Assembly (NCBI RefSeq): GCF_006542275.1
Contig: NZ_CP041217.1
Location: forward strand, 4,652,501 to 4,716,500
DNA: 64,000 nucleotides
Reading direction: 5' to 3'
From: Saccharibacillus brassicae
GTDB taxonomy: Bacteria > Bacillota > Bacilli > Paenibacillales > Paenibacillaceae
The translations under genes were made by a program, and so were the position numbers. Positions 26,193 through 34,448 of the stretch are shown here, in pieces. The notes under the pieces are model-generated. The model made no database searches. It saw nothing but the letters and a program-made list of their open reading frames with translations, and had not been told where the DNA came from. The stretch's first letter is position 1, and every line of letters starts with the position of its first letter.

Positions 26193-27209
26193 GTGGCCAA
26201 AGCAAGCGCGCAAACGTTGAGCGGAAGACAGAAAGCTGCCATTCTGCTCATCTCTCTCGGGCCGGAAGTTTCGGCTCAGATCTTCAAGCATCTGCGCGAT
26301 GAAGAAATCGAGCAGCTGACGCTCGAAATCGCCAACGTGCGAAAAGTGGACAGCTCGGAAAAAGATTCGGTACTTGCCGAGTTCCACCAAATTTGCCTGG
26401 CCCAGGAATACATTTCGCAGGGCGGCATCAACTACGCAAAAGAGATTCTTCAAAAAGCGCTCGGCGAACAGAAAGCGCTTGAAGTCATCAATCGACTGAC
26501 GGCCACTTTGCAGGTCCGTCCTTTCGACTTTGCGCGCAAAGCCGATCCGAGCCAGATTTTGAACTTTATCCAAAACGAAAATCCACAGACGATCGCGCTT
26601 GTGCTCTCGTATCTGCAGTTCGAGCAGGCGTCGGTGATCTTGTCTTCGCTGCCTCAGGAGAAACAAGCCGAAGTCGCGCGGCGGATCGCCATGATGGACA
26701 GCACTTCGCCGGAAGTTATCGCCCAGGTAGAACGCATACTGGAACAAAAGCTGTCTTCGACGGTTACGCAGGATTTTGCGACGGCAGGCGGTATCGAATC
26801 GATCGTTTCGATTTTGAACGGCGTCGACCGAGGAACGGAACGGACGATTCTCGACTCGCTCGAAATCCAGGATCCGGAACTGGCAGAAGAAATCAAGAAA
26901 AGAATGTTCGTGTTCGAAGATATCGTCAATATCGACGATCGTTCCATTCAGCGGATTATCCGCGATGTCGAAAATGCCGATCTTCAGCTCGCGCTCAAGG
27001 TCGCCAGCGAAGAAGTTCGCGAAGTCGTATTCAAAAACATGTCCAAACGGATGGCGGATACGTTCCGGGAAGAAATGGAATTCATGGGGCCTGTACGGCT
27101 TCGTGACGTGGAAGAAGCCCAGACTCGTATCGTAACGATTATCCGTAAGCTGGAAGAAGCGGGCGAGATCATCATCGCACGCGGCGGAGGAGATGATATC
27201 ATTGTCTAA
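26193..27209 (+). CDS. fliG: Flagellar motor switch protein FliG
   Basis: The 338-aa rotor protein couples stator ion flow to torque. It starts at GTG 26193 after TAGGAGTGA. The N domain begins SGRQKAAILLISLGPEVSAQIFKHL. The middle-domain EHPQ motif is ENPQ here (129-132). The C domain has VFEDIVNIDDRSIQRIIRDV and the charged torque helix region. It overlaps the fliH start by 8 bp. Confidence 0.97.
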   Translation: MAKASAQTLSGRQKAAILLISLGPEVSAQIFKHLRDEEIEQLTLEIANVRKVDSSEKDSVLAEFHQICLAQEYISQGGINYAKEILQKALGEQKALEVINRLTATLQVRPFDFARKADPSQILNFIQNENPQTIALVLSYLQFEQASVILSSLPQEKQAEVARRIAMMDSTSPEVIAQVERILEQKLSSTVTQDFATAGGIESIVSILNGVDRGTERTILDSLEIQDPELAEEIKKRMFVFEDIVNIDDRSIQRIIRDVENADLQLALKVASEEVREVVFKNMSKRMADTFREEMEFMGPVRLRDVEEAQTRIVTIIRKLEEAGEIIIARGGGDDIIV

Positions 27210-28023
27210 CCTCATTAAATCTTCGCAGTACGTGCCAAAAGAAGACTTTGTCAAGCTTGATCTGCATCGGCATTATGCCTCCAAGCAGGAAATCGACGGC
27301 CATGAGGACGAACCGAGGCTTCCGCTTGCGGATCAGCAGACGGTTGTCCTCAAAGACGAAATGATTCGGGATGCGAAAGAATTCGCGGAATTTCAAATTC
27401 GGGAATCCGCCGAACAAGCCGAACGCATGCTTGCCGAAGCGCAGCAGCAGATTGATCTCTGGTGGCAGGAAAAGCGCGAGCAGGACGAGCATTTGGTGGA
27501 AGCGGTCAAATCGCAGGGGTTCCGCGAAGGTTATGAGGAAGGCAGAGCACAGGCGGAAGCGGAGCTTGCCGTTCAAATCCGCGAAGCGGCCGAAGAAGTG
27601 CAGGCGTTGATCGAGGAAGCGGTTCGGACCAAAGAAGAAATCATTCAGGAAGCCGAACCTTTTCTCGTCAGTCTGAGTTCGGCGATTGCCGAAAAAATTA
27701 TCGATCGCAAGCTGGAGCAGGACGAAGCTTTGACCATTTCGCTGATCCGCCAGACGCTTTCGCGCAAAAGGGAGCAGGGCACCATTACGCTTTGTGTGGC
27801 GCCGTCGCAGTTTTCCCTGATCAACTCCGCGCGTGAAGAGCTTGCTATGTCGATTGATTCGCAGGCCGAGCTGCAAATTTTGCCCGATTCGACCGTCAAA
27901 GACCGCGGCTGCGTGATTCGATCGAACTTCGGAAGCGTCGATGCCAGAATTGATACCCAACTGACCGAAATCAAACGCGAATTGCTGAGAATGGCGCTGC
28001 ACGAAGAAGCTTCCGGTTCCTGA
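27202..28023 (+). CDS. fliH: Flagellar export regulator FliH
   Basis: The 273-aa protein binds and regulates the FliI ATPase. The start chosen is TTG 27202, giving (M)SNLIKSSQYVPKE and a 9-bp spacing from GGAGGAG (27186-27192). ATG 27193 would leave almost no spacing. The middle is a Glu/Gln/Ala-rich coiled coil, and the C-terminal part (LVSLSSAIAEKIIDRKLEQ, VKDRGCVIRSNFGSVDARI) fits FliH/YscL. A noncoding stretch with a repeated element follows. Confidence 0.9.
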   Translation: MSNLIKSSQYVPKEDFVKLDLHRHYASKQEIDGHEDEPRLPLADQQTVVLKDEMIRDAKEFAEFQIRESAEQAERMLAEAQQQIDLWWQEKREQDEHLVEAVKSQGFREGYEEGRAQAEAELAVQIREAAEEVQALIEEAVRTKEEIIQEAEPFLVSLSSAIAEKIIDRKLEQDEALTISLIRQTLSRKREQGTITLCVAPSQFSLINSAREELAMSIDSQAELQILPDSTVKDRGCVIRSNFGSVDARIDTQLTEIKRELLRMALHEEASGS

Positions 28024-28100
28024 TTGGCGGGCTGGACCTCCTAGTCGGACATAATCCTATAGGAACTCAGGTAACTTGCCGGGTTTTTTTAAAATGCGGA

Positions 28101-28146
28101 AATAGCACTTTTTAGCCTTAGAGGTTTTTTCGGAACGATGTACAAT
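28101..28146 (+). repeat. Intergenic element, copy 1 (fliH-fliI)
   Basis: The conserved core AATAGCACTTTTTAGCC (28101-28117), a T-run (28125-28130), and a -10-like TACAAT at 28141-28146, exactly 40 nt after the core begins. Copy 2 lies at 33514-33559. It may be an internal promoter or a regulatory RNA element; no standard -35 is present. Confidence 0.5.
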
Positions 28147-28184
28147 GATAAGTGTAAAGCGAACGACGGCGCGGAGGTGAAGGG

Positions 28185-29504
28185 ATGAAAGAAATTCTGG
28201 TCGACAAGTATTTGGAACAGCTCAGGCAGCTGGATCCAATCCGGGTAAACGGCAAGGTGACGCAGGTTATCGGGTTGATGGTCGAATCGGAAGGTCCCGA
28301 CGCGAGCATCGGCGAGGTTTGCTACATTTATCCGACCAAAACGTCGACTCCGCTCCAGGCCGAAGTCGTCGGATTCCGGGATAACAAAGTGCTGCTGATG
28401 CCGCTCGGCGAACTGCAGTCGATCGGCCCGGGATGCGACGTGGTCGGCACGGGCAAGCCGCTGACCGTACAGGTCGGTTCGGAACTGCTGGGCAAAGTGC
28501 TCGACGGTCTGGGAAGGCCGCTGGACGGTTCGCTGCTTCCGGCACGCATGGCCCACGCTTCGACGTTCAACGTGCCGAGCAATCCGCTGCAGCGTCCGAG
28601 AGTGCACGAGCCGATCAACGTCGGCGTTCGAGCCATCGACGGGCTGCTGACCATCGGCAAGGGACAGCGGGTCGGCATCTTCGCCGGCTCGGGCGTCGGC
28701 AAAAGCACGCTGATGGGCATGATCGCCCGAAACACTTCGGCGGACATCAACGTGATCGCGCTGGTCGGCGAACGGGGCCGCGAAGTATTGGACTTCATTG
28801 AACGCGACCTGGGGCCGGAAGGCCTGGCACGCTCCGTCGTGATCGTCGCAACGTCGGATCAACCGGCGCTGGTACGTATCAAGGCGGCGTTGATCGCGAC
28901 TAGCATTGCCGAGTATTACCGGGACCGCGGCATGAACGTCATGATGATGATGGACTCGGTTACGCGGTTTGCGATGGCTCAGCGCGAAGTCGGGCTGGCT
29001 GTCGGCGAACCGCCGGCGATGCGGGGTTATACCCCGTCGGTATTCGCGACGCTGCCCAAACTGCTCGAGCGGGCAGGAACGGGGCCGACCGGATCGATCA
29101 CCGCTTTCTACACCGTGTTGGTAGACGGCGACGATATGAACGAACCGATTGCCGATGCGGTGCGCGGGATTCTGGACGGACACATCGTGTTGAACCGGGG
29201 TATCGCCAACCGGGGACACTTTCCGGCCATCGATGTGCTGGCCAGCATCAGCCGGGTCATGAAAGACATCTCGCCGGAAATTCAAACCGACGCGGCCAAC
29301 AACTTGAAACGGCTGCTCTCGGTATACAAAGAGTCGGAAGACTTGATCAACATCGGCGCTTACCAAAGAGGGTCCAGTGCCGAGATCGACGAAGCGATCG
29401 AGAACATTCAACGCATCTGGGATTTTACAAAACAAAAAGTGGACGAAAAAACAACGCTGGACGAAACGATCGAACGTTTAATCCAAGAATTCTCAAGGAG
29501 CTGA
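28185..29504 (+). CDS. fliI: Flagellum-specific ATPase FliI
   Basis: The 439-aa F1-beta-like ATPase energises flagellar export. Walker A is GSGVGKST (in GIFAGSGVGKSTLMGMIAR). Also present are VIALVGERGREV, Walker B (MNVMMMMDSVTRFAMAQREVGLAVGEPP) and GSITAFYTVLVDGDDMNEPIAD. ATG 28185 follows CGGAGGTGA. It is separated from fliH by 161 bp, unusual in an otherwise tight operon, and this gap carries repeat copy 1. Confidence 0.97.
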   Translation: MKEILVDKYLEQLRQLDPIRVNGKVTQVIGLMVESEGPDASIGEVCYIYPTKTSTPLQAEVVGFRDNKVLLMPLGELQSIGPGCDVVGTGKPLTVQVGSELLGKVLDGLGRPLDGSLLPARMAHASTFNVPSNPLQRPRVHEPINVGVRAIDGLLTIGKGQRVGIFAGSGVGKSTLMGMIARNTSADINVIALVGERGREVLDFIERDLGPEGLARSVVIVATSDQPALVRIKAALIATSIAEYYRDRGMNVMMMMDSVTRFAMAQREVGLAVGEPPAMRGYTPSVFATLPKLLERAGTGPTGSITAFYTVLVDGDDMNEPIADAVRGILDGHIVLNRGIANRGHFPAIDVLASISRVMKDISPEIQTDAANNLKRLLSVYKESEDLINIGAYQRGSSAEIDEAIENIQRIWDFTKQKVDEKTTLDETIERLIQEFSRS

Positions 29505-29513
29505 CCTTAAGAA

Positions 29514-29960
29514 ATGTTGAAATTCAACTATTCATTTCAAAAAGTCGTGGATCTGAAAACAAGCGAAAAAAGTCATGCCGAAATGCATCTTTCTTCGGCA
29601 ATCGGACAATTGCAGGCTGAAAAGCATACGCTGGGCCAACTGTTCTCCGATAAAGATCAGATGGCCGATTCCCTTCAAACTCAGGCCACAAACGCGGTTT
29701 CAGCTTTCCAACTCCAGCAGATGCAGGATTATATCAACTACATCGACCAGTGCATTTTGCAAAAACGCCAGGATATTCAAACGGCGCAGGTAAAAGTCGA
29801 AGAAAAGAAAGAACATCTCACGACGAAAATGCTGGACGAAAAAGTGTGGCTGCAAGCGCGTGGCAAAGCACTGGAGTCGTTCCAAAAAGAAGAATCGCTG
29901 CGTGAGCAAAACGAACTTGACGAAATGGCGACCGTTCGATTTGCTTCCCGCACCCGCTAA
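29514..29960 (+). CDS. fliJ: Flagellar export chaperone FliJ
   Basis: The 148-aa, mostly helical coiled-coil protein begins MLKFNYSFQKVVDLKTSEKSHAEM, typical of FliJ, and is rich in Gln, Lys and Glu. FliJ sits in the FliI ring and links ATP hydrolysis to the export gate. It lies 9 bp after fliI. Confidence 0.9.
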   Translation: MLKFNYSFQKVVDLKTSEKSHAEMHLSSAIGQLQAEKHTLGQLFSDKDQMADSLQTQATNAVSAFQLQQMQDYINYIDQCILQKRQDIQTAQVKVEEKKEHLTTKMLDEKVWLQARGKALESFQKEESLREQNELDEMATVRFASRTR

Positions 29961-30016
29961 GAACGCAGGCGAAGCGGAATCAGCAAGTGCAACAAGTGCA
30001 AAGGGAGGTCAAAGGC

Positions 30017-30967
30017 ATGGCGAAAGCCGGAGCAGAAGCCGATATGAATCTTGAAGAAGGATCGGGAAGCAAAGCGGGACGAATCCTGCTGTTCGCGGTA
30101 CCGATTCTCTTCACGGTCGTACTGGTCGGTGCACTGCTGGCGTTGACGAATCCCAATACGCGCAACACCGTATTGGAGACGGCGAACAAAGTGCCGCTTG
30201 TCGGCTCGATGCTTCCCAAACCGACTTATACGCCGGCACAGCAGGCGCAGAAGCAGGAAGAGAAGCAGGCCGCAAGCGCCGAAGCAACGATCAGCGAACT
30301 GAAAACCCAGCTTCAACAGAAAACTACCGAACTAAAAACGGCGCAAAAAGCTCAAGCGGATACGCAGACCAAAGTGGACGATTTGCAAAAGCAGCTGGAT
30401 ACGGCCGCAGCAGCCCAGACAGCCAAAGCGGCTGCGGCGCCGGCGGAAGAAGAAGGACCGAGCAAGCAGGTCAAGCAGTTGGCCCAGACTTACGGCTCCA
30501 TGAGTGCCAGCAAAGCGGCTCCGATCCTTCAGACGCTGACCGATGCGGAAATCGCGATGGTGCTCAACGCGATGGGGACAGAGCAGCGTTCGGGCATTAT
30601 GCAGAAGATGACAGCCGACAAAGCGGCCAAAGTCTCGATCATGCTCAAAAACGCGACTTCGGCCAAAGCGCTGGAAGCGGCGGCCAATACGGCGCGTACA
30701 GCGGCCGACAAAGCGAGTCAGCCTACGCAAGCGGCGACTTCGACGGCAGGGTCGCTGAATCAAGACCAATTGGCGCAGACGTTTTCTTCGATGGATGCGT
30801 CGAGTGCCGCAACGCTGCTGGCCCAGATGGCCAAAACCAATCAAGCAAAGGTGTTGACCATTTTGAAATCGGTAGACGATACGACCCGTTCCGGAATCCT
30901 GTCGCAGATGGCGGGTACGGATAGCGAAACGGCTGCTTCCCTGGCCAATAAGTTGATCGGCGGTTAA
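30017..30967 (+). CDS. ylxF: MotE-like (YlxF) membrane protein with two MgtE-N-like repeats
   Basis: The 316-aa product starts at ATG 30017 after GGGAGG; GTG 29987 is less likely. One membrane helix (ILLFAVPILFTVVLVGALLAL, about 23-43) is followed by a coiled coil (about 75-130). Two copies of the MgtE N-terminal-like helical motif follow: LAQTYGSMSASKAAPILQTL (about 155-215) and LAQTFSSMDASSAATLLAQM (about 250-310). Position between fliJ and fliK matches ylxF. A chaperone or stability role for the motor, as for MotE, is inference. Confidence 0.8.
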   Translation: MAKAGAEADMNLEEGSGSKAGRILLFAVPILFTVVLVGALLALTNPNTRNTVLETANKVPLVGSMLPKPTYTPAQQAQKQEEKQAASAEATISELKTQLQQKTTELKTAQKAQADTQTKVDDLQKQLDTAAAAQTAKAAAAPAEEEGPSKQVKQLAQTYGSMSASKAAPILQTLTDAEIAMVLNAMGTEQRSGIMQKMTADKAAKVSIMLKNATSAKALEAAANTARTAADKASQPTQAATSTAGSLNQDQLAQTFSSMDASSAATLLAQMAKTNQAKVLTILKSVDDTTRSGILSQMAGTDSETAASLANKLIGG

Positions 30968-30998
30968 GTCCATTTGAGAGGAGGTGAATCAAGAAAAT

Positions 30999-32408
30999 AT
31001 GGGAATGAGCATTTCAGGAATGACGACAGGAGCTCCGGCGGCCCCGGCTGCCGCTGCTGCAGGAAGCAAAGCAGGTACCGTTACGGTCGCAAGCGGAGCA
31101 GCAGCCTTATTCGGTCAATCGCTTCAGCAGTTGATGGGAGCCGCGGTCTCCGCGACAGGATCGACTACAACTGCAATTGCGGCTGAAACGCCGGCCAATC
31201 CGATTTTGTCCGCGCTTCAGCAGTTGATTACGGCAACTGAGCAAACGAGCGGCGAGAACCAACAGTCGAACGACGGTGCGGCCGAAGAACTCGAACAGAA
31301 GCTCGACGAACTGATGCAGCAGCTTGATGTACTGGATGAACAGTTGACGGAAAATCCGGAATTGATGCCGATGCTTCAAGGCTGGATTCAGCAGGCGCAG
31401 GCGCTTCTCGGCAGCGTTGAAGAAGCAGGCGGAACCGAACAGGAACAGCCAGCTGGAAATGCGGTTCAGGCACTGGCTTCAAACCCGGCTACGCTGAAAT
31501 TTGCACTTCAAGATACGGTGGCCCAACTGATCGATCTGCAGCAATCGGATCAAGCGGCACCTGCAGTAAAAGTTCAGGCTCAGCAGGCGTTGGCAGCTCT
31601 TGAGCAGACGATTCAGACTGTCGATAGCGATACGCAAACCAAAGCCAAACAAGGTCTGACGCAGCAGCCGGCAGCAGTCGTTCAGCTTGCGGATGACGCA
31701 CAGCCGACAAAAAATGATCAGACGGTCTCCAAGCCGGCGGCAGAAGCGCAAGCGACGAACACGGCGGAGTCCAAAATCGTATCGGCGAAAAGTCAATCTC
31801 AGCAGGCCGGTACGCAGCAGGAAGGACAATCTTCCGAAGAAGCGTCGCAGGAGATCAAGCCGCAGGGCACGATTACGGCGGGAGAACTGGCTATGCGTAC
31901 AAACGGCACGACGCCAGCCAAGCCGGTTGAAGCGGTTCCTGTACACCGTATGGCACAAGAGGTTGAGAAGCTTGTCGTCGACCGACTGGAAATTTTGCAA
32001 AAGCAAGGATTTACCGAAGCCAAAATTTCGTTGACGCCCGATCATCTCGGCAAAGTCGATATCCGGATTACGATGCACGCCGGACAGCTGGTTGCCCACT
32101 TTGTGACCGAACATGCCGCTGCCAAAGATATGCTGGAGCAGCAGATGGTTCAACTGAGAGGATCGCTGCAGGGACAAGGCTTGACGGTAGAGCGGCTTGA
32201 AGTGACGCAAAGTTCTTCTCTGCAATCGCAAATGGACCAAAACGGTGGACAAGCAAGCAGTAGACAACAGCAGGAAAAACGCTCCCGTGCCAGAGAAGAA
32301 GCCAACGACGATGCGATCTTGGCGGCTGAACTCGGCGAAGAACTCGGCGAATGGCTGAGACAAAAAACGGCGGCGCAGTCCGGCAGTTCGTTTATAGCAG
32401 AAGCGTAA
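30999..32408 (+). CDS. fliK: Flagellar hook-length control protein FliK
   Basis: The 469-aa protein starts at ATG 30999 (strong GAGGAGGTGA at 30977-30987). Most of the sequence is a Gln/Ala/Thr-rich ruler. The C-terminal domain has EILQKQGFTEAKISLTPDHLGKVDIRITMHAGQLVAHFVTEHAAAKDMLEQQMVQLRGSLQGQGL, the Flg_hook signature that includes LTPxxLG. FliK switches FlhB export specificity when the hook is complete. It lies just before flgD. Confidence 0.95.
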   Translation: MGMSISGMTTGAPAAPAAAAAGSKAGTVTVASGAAALFGQSLQQLMGAAVSATGSTTTAIAAETPANPILSALQQLITATEQTSGENQQSNDGAAEELEQKLDELMQQLDVLDEQLTENPELMPMLQGWIQQAQALLGSVEEAGGTEQEQPAGNAVQALASNPATLKFALQDTVAQLIDLQQSDQAAPAVKVQAQQALAALEQTIQTVDSDTQTKAKQGLTQQPAAVVQLADDAQPTKNDQTVSKPAAEAQATNTAESKIVSAKSQSQQAGTQQEGQSSEEASQEIKPQGTITAGELAMRTNGTTPAKPVEAVPVHRMAQEVEKLVVDRLEILQKQGFTEAKISLTPDHLGKVDIRITMHAGQLVAHFVTEHAAAKDMLEQQMVQLRGSLQGQGLTVERLEVTQSSSLQSQMDQNGGQASSRQQQEKRSRAREEANDDAILAAELGEELGEWLRQKTAAQSGSSFIAEA

Positions 32409-32430
32409 TTCAGATTGGAGGCGAAAATTT

Positions 32431-33087
32431 TTGGCGAACAACAATGTTTCAACTTCGAACATTTGGCCTAACTATTCCACACAAAACGTGCAAAAAGCGG
32501 CAGCGGTTCCTTCCAAGGATTCGGCAACGATGGGCAAAGAACAATTTTTGACCATTTTGATCGCGCAGCTAAAAAACCAGGATCCGCTCGCCCCGATGGA
32601 CAATTCGCAGTTTACGGCTCAAATGGCGCAGTTCTCTTCGTTGGAACAGCTGATGAACATGTCTACGCAGCTGACGCAGATGAATGCTTCGATGGGTTCG
32701 GCTTCCCAACTGATCGGCCAGAAAGTCACCTGGTACGATACGGAATCGAAAAACTATTTGACCGGTAACGTAGCTTCCGTGTTGCAAAAAGACGGAAAAA
32801 TGTTCGCGGCCGTAGGCAAGTATCTCGTTCCGACTTCGGAGATCACGATGGTAGAACCGGCTGGAGCGGCTGACGACAAGGCAGAAGGCGTTACGCCGGG
32901 TAAAGCACCGGATCCGGCAGCTTCGACAGACGCGGCGGCAGCAGCCAAAACGGATGCCGTTTCCAAAGAAACGACAGAAGCGAAGACGACGGAAGCAGCT
33001 CCGGCAGCAGACAATCAGGCTCCGCAACAATCCGTAGAGGAGGCAGCCGGTACGCCGACATCCGGAACTAGCGGAGGTGCGCAATGA
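32431..33087 (+). CDS. flgD: Flagellar hook assembly (capping) protein FlgD
   Basis: The 218-aa protein starts at TTG 32431, 9 bp after TTGGAGGCG. The FlgD core is GKEQFLTILIAQLKNQDPLAPMDNSQFTAQMAQFSSLEQLMNMSTQL, followed by a short Ig-like part. The last 75 residues are Ala/Thr/Lys-rich low complexity. FlgD caps the growing hook. The TGA stop overlaps the next ATG. Confidence 0.94.
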   Translation: MANNNVSTSNIWPNYSTQNVQKAAAVPSKDSATMGKEQFLTILIAQLKNQDPLAPMDNSQFTAQMAQFSSLEQLMNMSTQLTQMNASMGSASQLIGQKVTWYDTESKNYLTGNVASVLQKDGKMFAAVGKYLVPTSEITMVEPAGAADDKAEGVTPGKAPDPAASTDAAAAAKTDAVSKETTEAKTTEAAPAADNQAPQQSVEEAAGTPTSGTSGGAQ

Positions 33088-33455
33088 ACGACCCGATTCG
33101 CGTAGGGCAGTTATATCCGGCGAAAATGCCGCCGACCGTATCGAGGCCCACAGGTCCGAACGCGGGACAGGAAAGCTTCAAGAACGTACTCGAAGATAAA
33201 CTGCTGAAGTTTAGCGGACATGCTTCGAAAAGGCTCGAACAGCGGGGTATCGAATTCAACCCGGAGCAGCTTCGCAAAATCGGCAGTGCTATCGACAAGG
33301 CGGCCGCCAAAGGCTCCAAAGAATCGCTCGTTTTGATGCAGGATCTGGCCCTGATCGTAAACGTGCGCAACCGCACCGTAGTTACGGCAGTCGACGGAGG
33401 TTCCATGAAAGACAATGTGTTCACTCAAATCGACAGTGCCGTCATCGTTTCCTAG
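33084..33455 (+). CDS. TIGR02530-type flagellar operon protein
   Basis: The 123-aa protein, coupled to flgD by a 4-bp overlap, contains ESFKNVLEDKLLKFSGHASKRLEQRGIEFNPEQLRKIGSAIDKAAAKGSKESLVL and NRTVVTAVDG. This matches a small conserved family found next to flgD and flgE in many flagellated bacteria. Its role is not established; B. subtilis lacks it at this place. It is followed by a 168-bp gap with repeat copy 2. Confidence 0.85.
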   Translation: MNDPIRVGQLYPAKMPPTVSRPTGPNAGQESFKNVLEDKLLKFSGHASKRLEQRGIEFNPEQLRKIGSAIDKAAAKGSKESLVLMQDLALIVNVRNRTVVTAVDGGSMKDNVFTQIDSAVIVS

Positions 33456-33485
33456 TTTGACCGGCTGGCCCGATAGGAAGCCGTA

Positions 33486-33511
33486 TTACCGCCGAACGCA
33501 TGACGCGGTAA
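33486..33511 (+). other. Hairpin before the flgE-side repeat
   Basis: TTACCGC (33486-33492) pairs with GCGGTAA (33505-33511) directly upstream of the repeated element. A second small stem (GCCGG with CCGGC, about 33528-33545) follows within that element. Confidence 0.4.
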
Positions 33512-33513
33512 AA

Positions 33514-33559
33514 AATAGCACTTTATAGCCGGGTTTTTTTCCGGCAATGACAGTAAAAT
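33514..33559 (+). repeat. Intergenic element, copy 2 (before flgE)
   Basis: AATAGCACTTTATAGCC (33514-33530), a T-run (33534-33540) and a -10-like TAAAAT (33554-33559), again 40 nt after the core begins. It differs from copy 1 by one base in the 17-nt core. The flgE start is 65 bp further on. Confidence 0.5.
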
Positions 33560-33623
33560 GAAAGCAATTCAAGTTTATACGATCATACTCAAAATTGTGC
33601 ACAATCACAGGAGGAATCATTTA

Positions 33624-34448
33624 ATGTTGAGATCCATGTATTCGGGCGTGTCGGGTATGAAAGGCTTCCAAACCAAACTTGACGTCATCGGCAACAATAT
33701 CGCGAATGTAAATACGGCCGGATTCAAATCTTCACGCGTTATGTTCAAAGATATCCTCAGCCAAACGGCAGCAGGCGCAACAGGTTCTACAGCAGAAGTA
33801 GGCGGTTCTAACGCCAAACAGATCGGTCTGGGTGTATCGATCGGTTCCATTGACACCTTGCACTTGGCGGGTAGCGCCATGACAACGAACAACCCAACGG
33901 ATCTTCGTATCGACGGTGACGGCTTCTTCGCAGTCGGACTGACCGCTGAAACGGATGCCGCAAATGCTTTCTTGACAAGAGCAGGTGACTTCCATGTTGA
34001 TGGAACGGGCAACTTGGTTAACTCGGATGGACTTTTTGTTCTTAATACTGGAGGCGGAGCGATCAATGTCCCGCAAGGTTCGACTTTTTCGATTGGTAGT
34101 GACGGAGTAGTCGCGATCAAAGCTGCTGACGGAACGATTGCAACAGATAACCGGATAGCTGTTGTTGTAGTACGTAACCCGGAAGGATTGGAAAAAGCAG
34201 GCGGCAACCTGTACCGGGTAGGACAAAATGCTATGGCAGAAGGCGAGACGATCGTATTTGAAGCCGAAGCCGATGGGCCTAATGCAATGGCCGGGGGCAT
34301 CGTAGCCGGCCAGCTGGAAATGTCCAACGTCGATCTGACGAGCGAGTTTACCGAAATGATTACGGCGCAGCGCGGATTCCAAGCGAACTCCAGAATCATT
34401 ACGACCTCCGACGAAGTGCTCCAGGAAGTCGTTAACCTGAAACGTTAA
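33624..34448 (+). CDS. flgE: Flagellar hook protein FlgE (FlgG-type)
   Basis: The 274-aa protein starts at ATG 33624 after AGGAGG. It begins MLRSMYSGVSGMKGFQTKLDVIGNNIANVNTAGFK and ends with SNVDLTSEFTEMITAQRGFQANSRIITTSDEVLQEVVNLKR, the FlgE/F/G terminal helices. The length equals the short hook protein of Bacillus. The middle (about 33780-34240) uses more A/T-ending codons than its neighbours, which may reflect high expression or a divergent surface domain. Confidence 0.9.
   Translation: MLRSMYSGVSGMKGFQTKLDVIGNNIANVNTAGFKSSRVMFKDILSQTAAGATGSTAEVGGSNAKQIGLGVSIGSIDTLHLAGSAMTTNNPTDLRIDGDGFFAVGLTAETDAANAFLTRAGDFHVDGTGNLVNSDGLFVLNTGGGAINVPQGSTFSIGSDGVVAIKAADGTIATDNRIAVVVVRNPEGLEKAGGNLYRVGQNAMAEGETIVFEAEADGPNAMAGGIVAGQLEMSNVDLTSEFTEMITAQRGFQANSRIITTSDEVLQEVVNLKR

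Follow-up and report, generated by a model that had tools for sequence, protein, structure and literature searches.

A conserved two-hairpin leader RNA and a probable clade-specific pair of internal promoters in the flagellar operon of Saccharibacillus brassicae

A 64,000-nucleotide stretch of the Saccharibacillus brassicae genome (contig NZ_CP041217.1, positions 4,652,501 to 4,716,500 of the forward strand; the whole of it is referred to as the window, in whose numbering positions are given) carries part of the fla/che operon, in which the gaps ahead of the export ATPase gene fliI and the hook gene flgE each hold a copy of one short element (the twin element). The two copies are a probable clade-specific pair of internal promoters. 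The copy ahead of flgE begins directly behind an older RNA of two hairpins (H1 and H2), which is almost certainly a real structured RNA and which is found ahead of flgE, and in some genomes also of flgG, in step with the gene for the flagellar protein TIGR02530. This leader RNA was missed by an earlier sequence-only reading of the same DNA, which had pointed out the twin element, and is apparently undescribed so far. All of the features described lie on the plus strand.

The core of copy 1, AATAGCACTTTTTAGCC, lies at 28101..28117 and that of copy 2, AATAGCACTTTATAGCC, at 33514..33530, both identified by a pattern search and from the alignment of relatives. They are followed by the -10-like hexamers TACAAT (28141..28146) and TAAAAT (33554..33559), respectively. 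As first described, the cores stand ahead of fliI and flgE, and in both copies the hexamer begins exactly 40 nt after the start of the core; the distance from the end of the hexamer to the start codon is 38 nt for fliI and 64 nt for flgE. The description of the pair as a duplicated element of 46 bp overstates its length, as approximately 26 of the 46 positions agree. On direct comparison, the likeness is confined to the core (16 of 17 positions), a portion of the T-run and the hexamer. There is a further likeness upstream that had not been noted: both copies have TAGGAA starting 39-41 nt ahead of the core and, 14-17 nt farther upstream, CTAGT or CTAGC. Sequence comparison places these sites for copy 1 at 28060..28065 (TAGGAA, 41 nt before the core start and invariant in 10/10 genomes) and 28038..28045 (CTCCTAGT), and for copy 2 at 33474..33479 (TAGGAA, 40 nt before the core start and also within H1) and 33449..33456 (TTCCTAGT, overlapping the TIGR02530 stop codon). 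The word GCCGGGTTTTTTT occurs at 28078 and 33528, as had been reported, and words resembling it with up to two mismatches were found five times against 3.6 expected, which is about the shuffle frequency. It is also worth mentioning that GGGCTGGACCT at 28028-28040 precedes copy 1 and that the same letters make up a common 5′ arm of H1; this was seen in the window genome only and in none of the gaps of the other nine carrier genomes.

With up to three mismatches allowed, the 17-mer core has two matches in the window against 0.18 expected from shuffles, none of 100 shuffles reaching two. In the window's own genome (G000, a single contig of 5.6 Mb), AATAGCACTTTWTAGCC with zero to two mismatches was found at these two sites only, with 10 more sites at three mismatches, while a profile of the whole element (56 positions) gave the same two sites and no third at E<=1. 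The exact 17-mer was found in 49 stretches among the genomes of 84,980 species, 12 in Saccharibacillus records (9 species or strains) and 37 scattered, where our own arithmetic gives approximately 60 matches by chance. In four of the stretches (L014, L026, L029, and L030, from one Lachnospiraceae metagenome-assembled genome) the 17-mer is about 42 nt or less from a contig end and probably belongs to an unrelated repeat.

Conservation at both sites, which had been proposed as a check, holds for each of the 10 genomes that belong to one clade and fails in the six others of the 16 genomes sampled from the same GTDB genus, which have neither copy. The 56-position profile, built from the 20 copies, matches twice at E<=1e-8 in each of the 10 carriers; in the six non-carriers no match reached E<=0.001, the best match outside the ten having an E-value of 0.0026. 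A third copy, for which a search of related genomes had also been proposed, was not encountered in the carriers by profile. The core start and TAnAAT are 40 nt apart in 18 copies and 41 nt in two, and TAGGAA begins 39-41 nt before the core in 20/20 copies, with CTAGT (CTAGC in one) 14-17 nt before it. Invariant across the 20 copies are A-n-ATAGCACTTT and GTA-n-AAT, the letters between them being variable. The core contains TAGC twice, 10 bp apart in 19/20 copies and 9 bp apart in that of L095, a pairing that would suit a dimeric activator. Over the ten genomes, the alignment of copy 1 has 53 invariant columns out of 105, the first lying at the T of TAGGAA and the last shortly past the hexamer. 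In the six non-carriers only 4 nt separate the fliH and fliI matches and flgE is preceded by a gap of 95-99 nt, whereas in the carriers these gaps measure 162-198 nt and 154-175 nt, and therefore the element is an insertion at both sites. With its presence in 10 genomes and absence from six of the same genus, it is a clade-specific gain, probably a recent one. The identity of TIGR02530 to the window protein splits likewise, at 80-100% in the ten carriers and 65-69% in the six non-carriers.

The reading that we put forward, with a probability of roughly one half, is that the twin element is an activator-dependent internal promoter of one Saccharibacillus clade that was gained twice. In this proposal, a DNA-binding activator would occupy the core, whose centre is some 44 nt upstream of the likely transcript start, and so stand in for a -35 box, perhaps assisted by the upstream sites TAGGAA and CTAGT, with RNA polymerase opening the DNA at TAnAAT. 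One gain before fliI and one before flgE could thereby boost the export ATPase and the hook genes onward separately from the operon head. What the data show directly is the conservation, spacing, copy number and insertion site of the element, together with the covariation and distribution of the RNA; promoter activity, the activator and a bypass of the RNA are all things that we infer. The reading is favoured because the spacing is near-rigid, the -10-like hexamer is invariant, no SigA, SigD or sigma-54 promoter and no terminator are present, and copy 1 has no fold beyond chance. Of the options originally raised (internal promoter, processing site or RNA sensor), the internal promoter is the one best fitted by the near-rigid spacing, the invariant TAnAAT and the absence of RNA structure from copy 1, while the RNA sensor is not supported for the repeated element. 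As regards an activator-dependent promoter lacking a -35 box, the hexamer and the core, the latter a candidate protein site, were seen at a spacing of 40-41 nt in 20/20 copies.

Of sigma-70-type elements the twin copies have the -10-like hexamer only. The statement that no standard SigA -35 is present was borne out, with no sigma-70-type -35/-10 pair found in 27900-33700. The SigD pattern TAAA-N15-GCCGATAT has no match with up to three mismatches at copy 1 and one with three mismatches at copy 2 (33509), at a stringency for which the window has 65 matches and 44 would be expected; a SigD promoter was therefore rejected. A sigma-54 promoter (TGGCAC-N5-TTGCW) was likewise rejected, neither copy having a match with up to three mismatches, as was an intrinsic terminator or attenuator, none being detected on the plus strand of 27900-33700. 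A loose SigD-like word, TAAA-N15-GCCG at 33509-33535, overlaps copy 2; by eye, its TAAA is lost in several relatives.

A number of points weigh against the promoter reading. Even a loose threshold (TTGACA and TATAAT separated by 16-18 nt, with 9 or more of the 12 letters matching) was reached nowhere in 27900-33700, and the absence of a third site from the genome is unusual for the site of a regulator. In copy 2, the upstream sites share letters with a stop codon and with a hairpin of the RNA, both subject to constraints of their own, and the likeness of these sites to those of copy 1 may be partly coincidental. The strict conservation of sequence could reflect an RNA-level signal instead. Such a signal, acting in the operon transcript in processing or antitermination and setting the levels of fliI and flgE, would agree with the position of both copies between genes of one operon and before start codons, with the short G-C stretches that precede the T-runs, and with the potential of copy 2 to fold into a hairpin (GCCGGG/CCGGC) that encloses its T-run. 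By eye, however, this hairpin is missing from copy 1 and from several relatives of copy 2, copy 1 is no better folded than shuffles (z -0.08, which also leaves the RNA sensor suggested for the repeated element unsupported), and near-rigid spacing of separate sites fits DNA better, so that we regard an RNA-level role as rather unlikely.

A protein roadblock or repressor site that cuts read-through at two points of the operon, with no transcript start, would draw on the same conservation data, including a conserved span of approximately 90 bp in copy 1, but it leaves the invariant GTAnAAT at its fixed spacing unexplained and seems to us distinctly improbable. That both copies are functionless remnants of a small mobile or duplicated sequence is in keeping with their restriction to one clade and with the fliI copy having filled a gapless site; such an origin is very improbable, however, as the core letters are (nearly) invariant while nearby intergenic letters changed among the 10 genomes, and no further copies exist in these genomes.

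The leader RNA occupies 33459..33513 and scores 64.4 bits with its covariance model (named R1); it is supported by covariation and folding. It consists of H1 (33462..33483), with an invariant GG in an internal loop, and H2 (33486..33511), with an invariant GA...G...GA in its loop, both as seen in the R1 alignment and by folding. The two hairpins and the conserved loop letters were present in all 42 loci fetched from the genus and family, a set that excludes 23 further family genomes with TIGR02530 for which no locus was fetched. Among 100 selected sequences aligned to R1, 96.5% of pair cells are paired and double changes occur in 12 of the 13 pairs, as expected of a structured cis-acting RNA. 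Double-change cells number 254 against 69.6 +- 12.7 in shuffles (0/500 as high), and 15-99 when the partners are slid, with the limits that this alignment is fitted to the structure and the shuffles ignore relatedness. An alignment made free of structure (A1, 42 related sequences) has double changes in 7 of 10 predicted pairs, with H1 partly misaligned. The unpaired GG of H1 and the GA, G and GA of H2 are kept in 100/100 aligned sequences. Folding is clearly better than in shuffles for L135 (z -3.43) and L296 (z -2.39). For the window RNA it is only modestly so (z -1.41, 17/200 shuffles as good), which tells against the structure, and the case for the RNA is accordingly taken from covariation among relatives.

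No family of Rfam 15 reached its gathering threshold over the RNA, whether in the window or in 37 more loci that bear it (38 were scanned, among them L176, which is no true copy); the sole match was a T-box elsewhere in the locus L297, and lax thresholds gave chance-level matches only. CsrA was rejected as a partner of the RNA because GGA is not conserved in the hairpin loops: the letter after the invariant GG of H1 is A in 71, C in 26 and T in 3 of 100 sequences, and H2 has no invariant GGA. An attenuator was rejected as well, with T5 found within 14 nt of H2 in 1/136 RNA loci. A short reading frame inside the RNA was rejected on the grounds that lengths of 52-64 nt occur in all residues modulo 3; all three frames contain a stop in 54/136 loci only, which alone does not exclude coding. 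Finally, the reading of copy 1 as a decayed copy of the RNA was rejected, since a search of the whole window with R1 at E<=1 returned only 33459-33513 and two weak matches elsewhere (14.2 and 12.8 bits), although GGGCTGGACCT stands before copy 1 in the window.

In genome searches with R1 (E<=0.001), matches were found in 144 of 149 Paenibacillales genomes (order sample), 97 of 250 Bacilli (class) and 125 of 199 Bacillota (phylum). These and the following tallies are unweighted counts of related genomes. Among the 80 loci fetched from the order and class samples, flgE lies 15-130 nt downstream in 78 and TIGR02530 upstream in 77; two of the 80, L176 and L255, were judged false. By eye, the R1 match of L255 seems to lie in a gene for ATP synthase alpha. 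In the phylum sample, two R1 matches were detected in 30 of the 199 genomes besides the window's own. The 40 loci fetched there comprise both copies of ten two-match genomes and the single copy of 20 more (Clostridia-type by inference), and by their printed translations 30 lie between TIGR02530 and a flgE-like gene and 10, all second copies, between a flgF-like gene and flgG. In 15 further genomes the RNA match is not on the contig of TIGR02530. All 15 matches follow a flgF-like end and flgG was seen downstream in 12; a weaker RNA copy (19.6-29.4 bits) stands behind TIGR02530 in 5/5 of these genomes inspected. FlgG was confirmed by model for two of the 10 second copies and for three loci of this 15-genome set, and of two genes scanned upstream of flgG copies, one passed the FlgF model.

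The RNA is closely tied to TIGR02530, whose gene in the window lies at 33084..33455 (model match above cut-off) and whose co-occurrence with the RNA makes it the candidate partner. In the Bacilli sample TIGR02530 is present in 116 of 250 genomes, and the common genome-wide search found the RNA in 96 of these. On a closer look at the 20 misses, it was present at the right place in 18 (17.2-37.6 bits) and in the last two with filters off (26.9 and 27.8 bits), giving 116/116, some of the matches being weak. The 48 Bacilli with FlgE (E<=1e-40) and without TIGR02530 gave one match in the common search (G240), which was judged false, and hence 0/48. Both states are present within families f13, f16, f37, f39, f43, and f51 of the Bacilli sample and within the window's own family. 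Among the Bacillota, TIGR02530 is found in 147 of 199 genomes and all 125 genomes with the RNA are among them. In three Paenibacillaceae genomes of genus g5 (loci L330 of genome G019, L331, and L332) FlgE is present and neither TIGR02530 nor the RNA was found; in L330 a fliK-like gene is followed by flgD and then, after 41 nt, by flgE. Four order-sample genomes with FlgE in which no RNA had been found, namely the three of g5 and G094, were searched with filters off, and no match exceeded 12.1 bits.

With a protein-bound autoregulatory leader in mind, what was observed is the co-occurrence of protein and RNA. We propose tentatively, and with more doubt than belief, that TIGR02530 is an RNA-binding regulator of the leader, acting in cis at flgE and in trans at flgG to time or balance distal-rod and hook synthesis in the Bacillota, and that one Saccharibacillus clade partly escaped it through the putative promoter behind the RNA. 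A link in trans is better argued from the flgG copies, because they are not neighbours of TIGR02530. Several observations count against such a role. The flgE copy adjoins the TIGR02530 gene, so that one deletion could explain both losses. The closer look was confined to TIGR02530-bearing misses, and an even comparison is 96/116 against 0/48. At E<=0.001, 22 of 147 TIGR02530-bearing Bacillota lack the RNA (standard search only), and in G094 FlgE is present and the RNA was not found. The second gene scanned upstream of a flgG copy had no match at E<=1e-40. Two R1 matches had to be taken as false, one in the window's own genome (G000:C1:5393716, 30.8 bits, E 6e-4) inside a 306-codon open frame and the G240 match (L255 739-792; G240:C22:23238-23291; 29.1 bits), which is on a contig other than that of its FlgE. 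As to the protein, Pfam assigned PF12611 to 24 residues at the C-terminus and had a match to DUF4258 that was weak and under cut-off, an AlphaFold2 model from eight close sequences was poor (mean pLDDT 48.4), and comparison of the TIGR02530 profile with solved structures returned chance-level matches only (best E 0.21).

Alternatively, the RNA may be a passive translation enhancer or mRNA stabiliser, required for the larger amounts in which hook and rod subunits are produced, its link with TIGR02530 arising from shared ancestry and adjacency. FlgG and FlgE are abundant axial subunits, and a single deletion would remove both the TIGR02530 gene and the flgE copy beside it, as in G019. We consider this quite plausible, a little short of an even chance; it has to contend with the single-stranded GG, GA, G, and GA kept in 100/100 sequences, which goes beyond the needs of a generic stem-loop, and with the flgG copies, which lie away from TIGR02530 and yet 0/125 RNA-bearing Bacillota genomes are without TIGR02530.

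Copy 2 of the twin element stands between the RNA and the flgE ribosome-binding site, and transcripts starting there would therefore lack the RNA, while those from the operon head would carry it. Inserted behind a far older leader, copy 2 would thus stack two layers of control before flgE. The insertion leaves 110 nt between RNA and start codon in the window, compared with 15-55 nt for the majority of the 78 loci that have flgE downstream. The H2 stem in the ten carriers keeps compensating changes (e.g., T-A 8, G-C 2 at one pair; A-T 7, G-C 2, G-T 1 at another), and the RNA is therefore probably still under selection there. Either its proximity to the ribosome-binding site is not needed or the operon-head transcript still matters.

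With regard to known systems, the fla/che operon of Bacillus subtilis has internal promoters such as P-ylxF3, which is SigD-type. The putative twin promoters resemble it as extra starts inside a long flagellar operon and differ in that copy 1 has no match to the SigD pattern and copy 2 a poor one. Ribosomal-protein and other protein-bound leaders are small conserved hairpins before the regulated gene that are tied to one protein family; here, the RNA matches no Rfam family and the candidate protein is a flagellar one. The B. subtilis fla/che operon also has a sigma-A promoter activated by SwrA-DegU (PMC12826050), and so offers a flagellar promoter in need of an activator, as proposed for the twin element. 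It lies at the operon head, however, whereas the two copies of the twin element are internal to it, one ahead of fliI and one ahead of flgE. The control of flagellin mRNA by CsrA-FliW (PMC4894983) is similar to the proposal for the leader RNA in placing a flagellar mRNA under a small RNA-binding protein, but CsrA binds GGA motifs and the leader has no invariant GGA. The Campylobacter small RNA CJnc230/FlmE, processed from the flgE mRNA (PMC11187230), also ties post-transcriptional control to this mRNA, although it is encoded downstream of flgE and acts on other mRNAs whereas the leader RNA precedes flgE or flgG.

No description of either element was found in the open-access literature searched, mostly at the level of titles and abstracts, on flagellar RNA motifs, flgE/flgG leaders, hook regulation, TIGR02530/PF12611, and Saccharibacillus promoters. 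The main texts of PMC2864571, PMC6429828, PMC8040213, PMC11109978, and PMC5670726 contain no flagellar or motility terms. That the RNA has been overlooked would be explained if the common laboratory species belong to the flagellated Bacilli without TIGR02530. The order and the numbers in which hook and rod subunits are made have to be right, and a conserved leader RNA that accompanies one uncharacterised protein suggests an additional layer of flagellar control, with no account of it found in the papers searched. The twin element offers a natural experiment in this respect, a clade with a probable promoter between RNA and gene in which the base pairs of the RNA are retained. Whether TIGR02530 binds the flgE and flgG leaders is a testable question.

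The order of genes at the locus is fliG, fliH, fliI, fliJ, a gene weakly matching FlbB, a gene without a match where fliK would stand, flgD, TIGR02530, a flgE-type gene and a fliL-type gene, several of these assignments being based on model matches under curated cut-offs. The gene before copy 1, fliH (27193..28023), was assigned with NCBIfam FliH models under the curated cut-off, and fliI (28185..29504) with TIGR03497 above cut-off. The flgE-type hook gene (33624..34448) matches FlgE/FlgG-family models, with the FlgG model PRK12636 barely over cut-off, and takes its name from its operon position.

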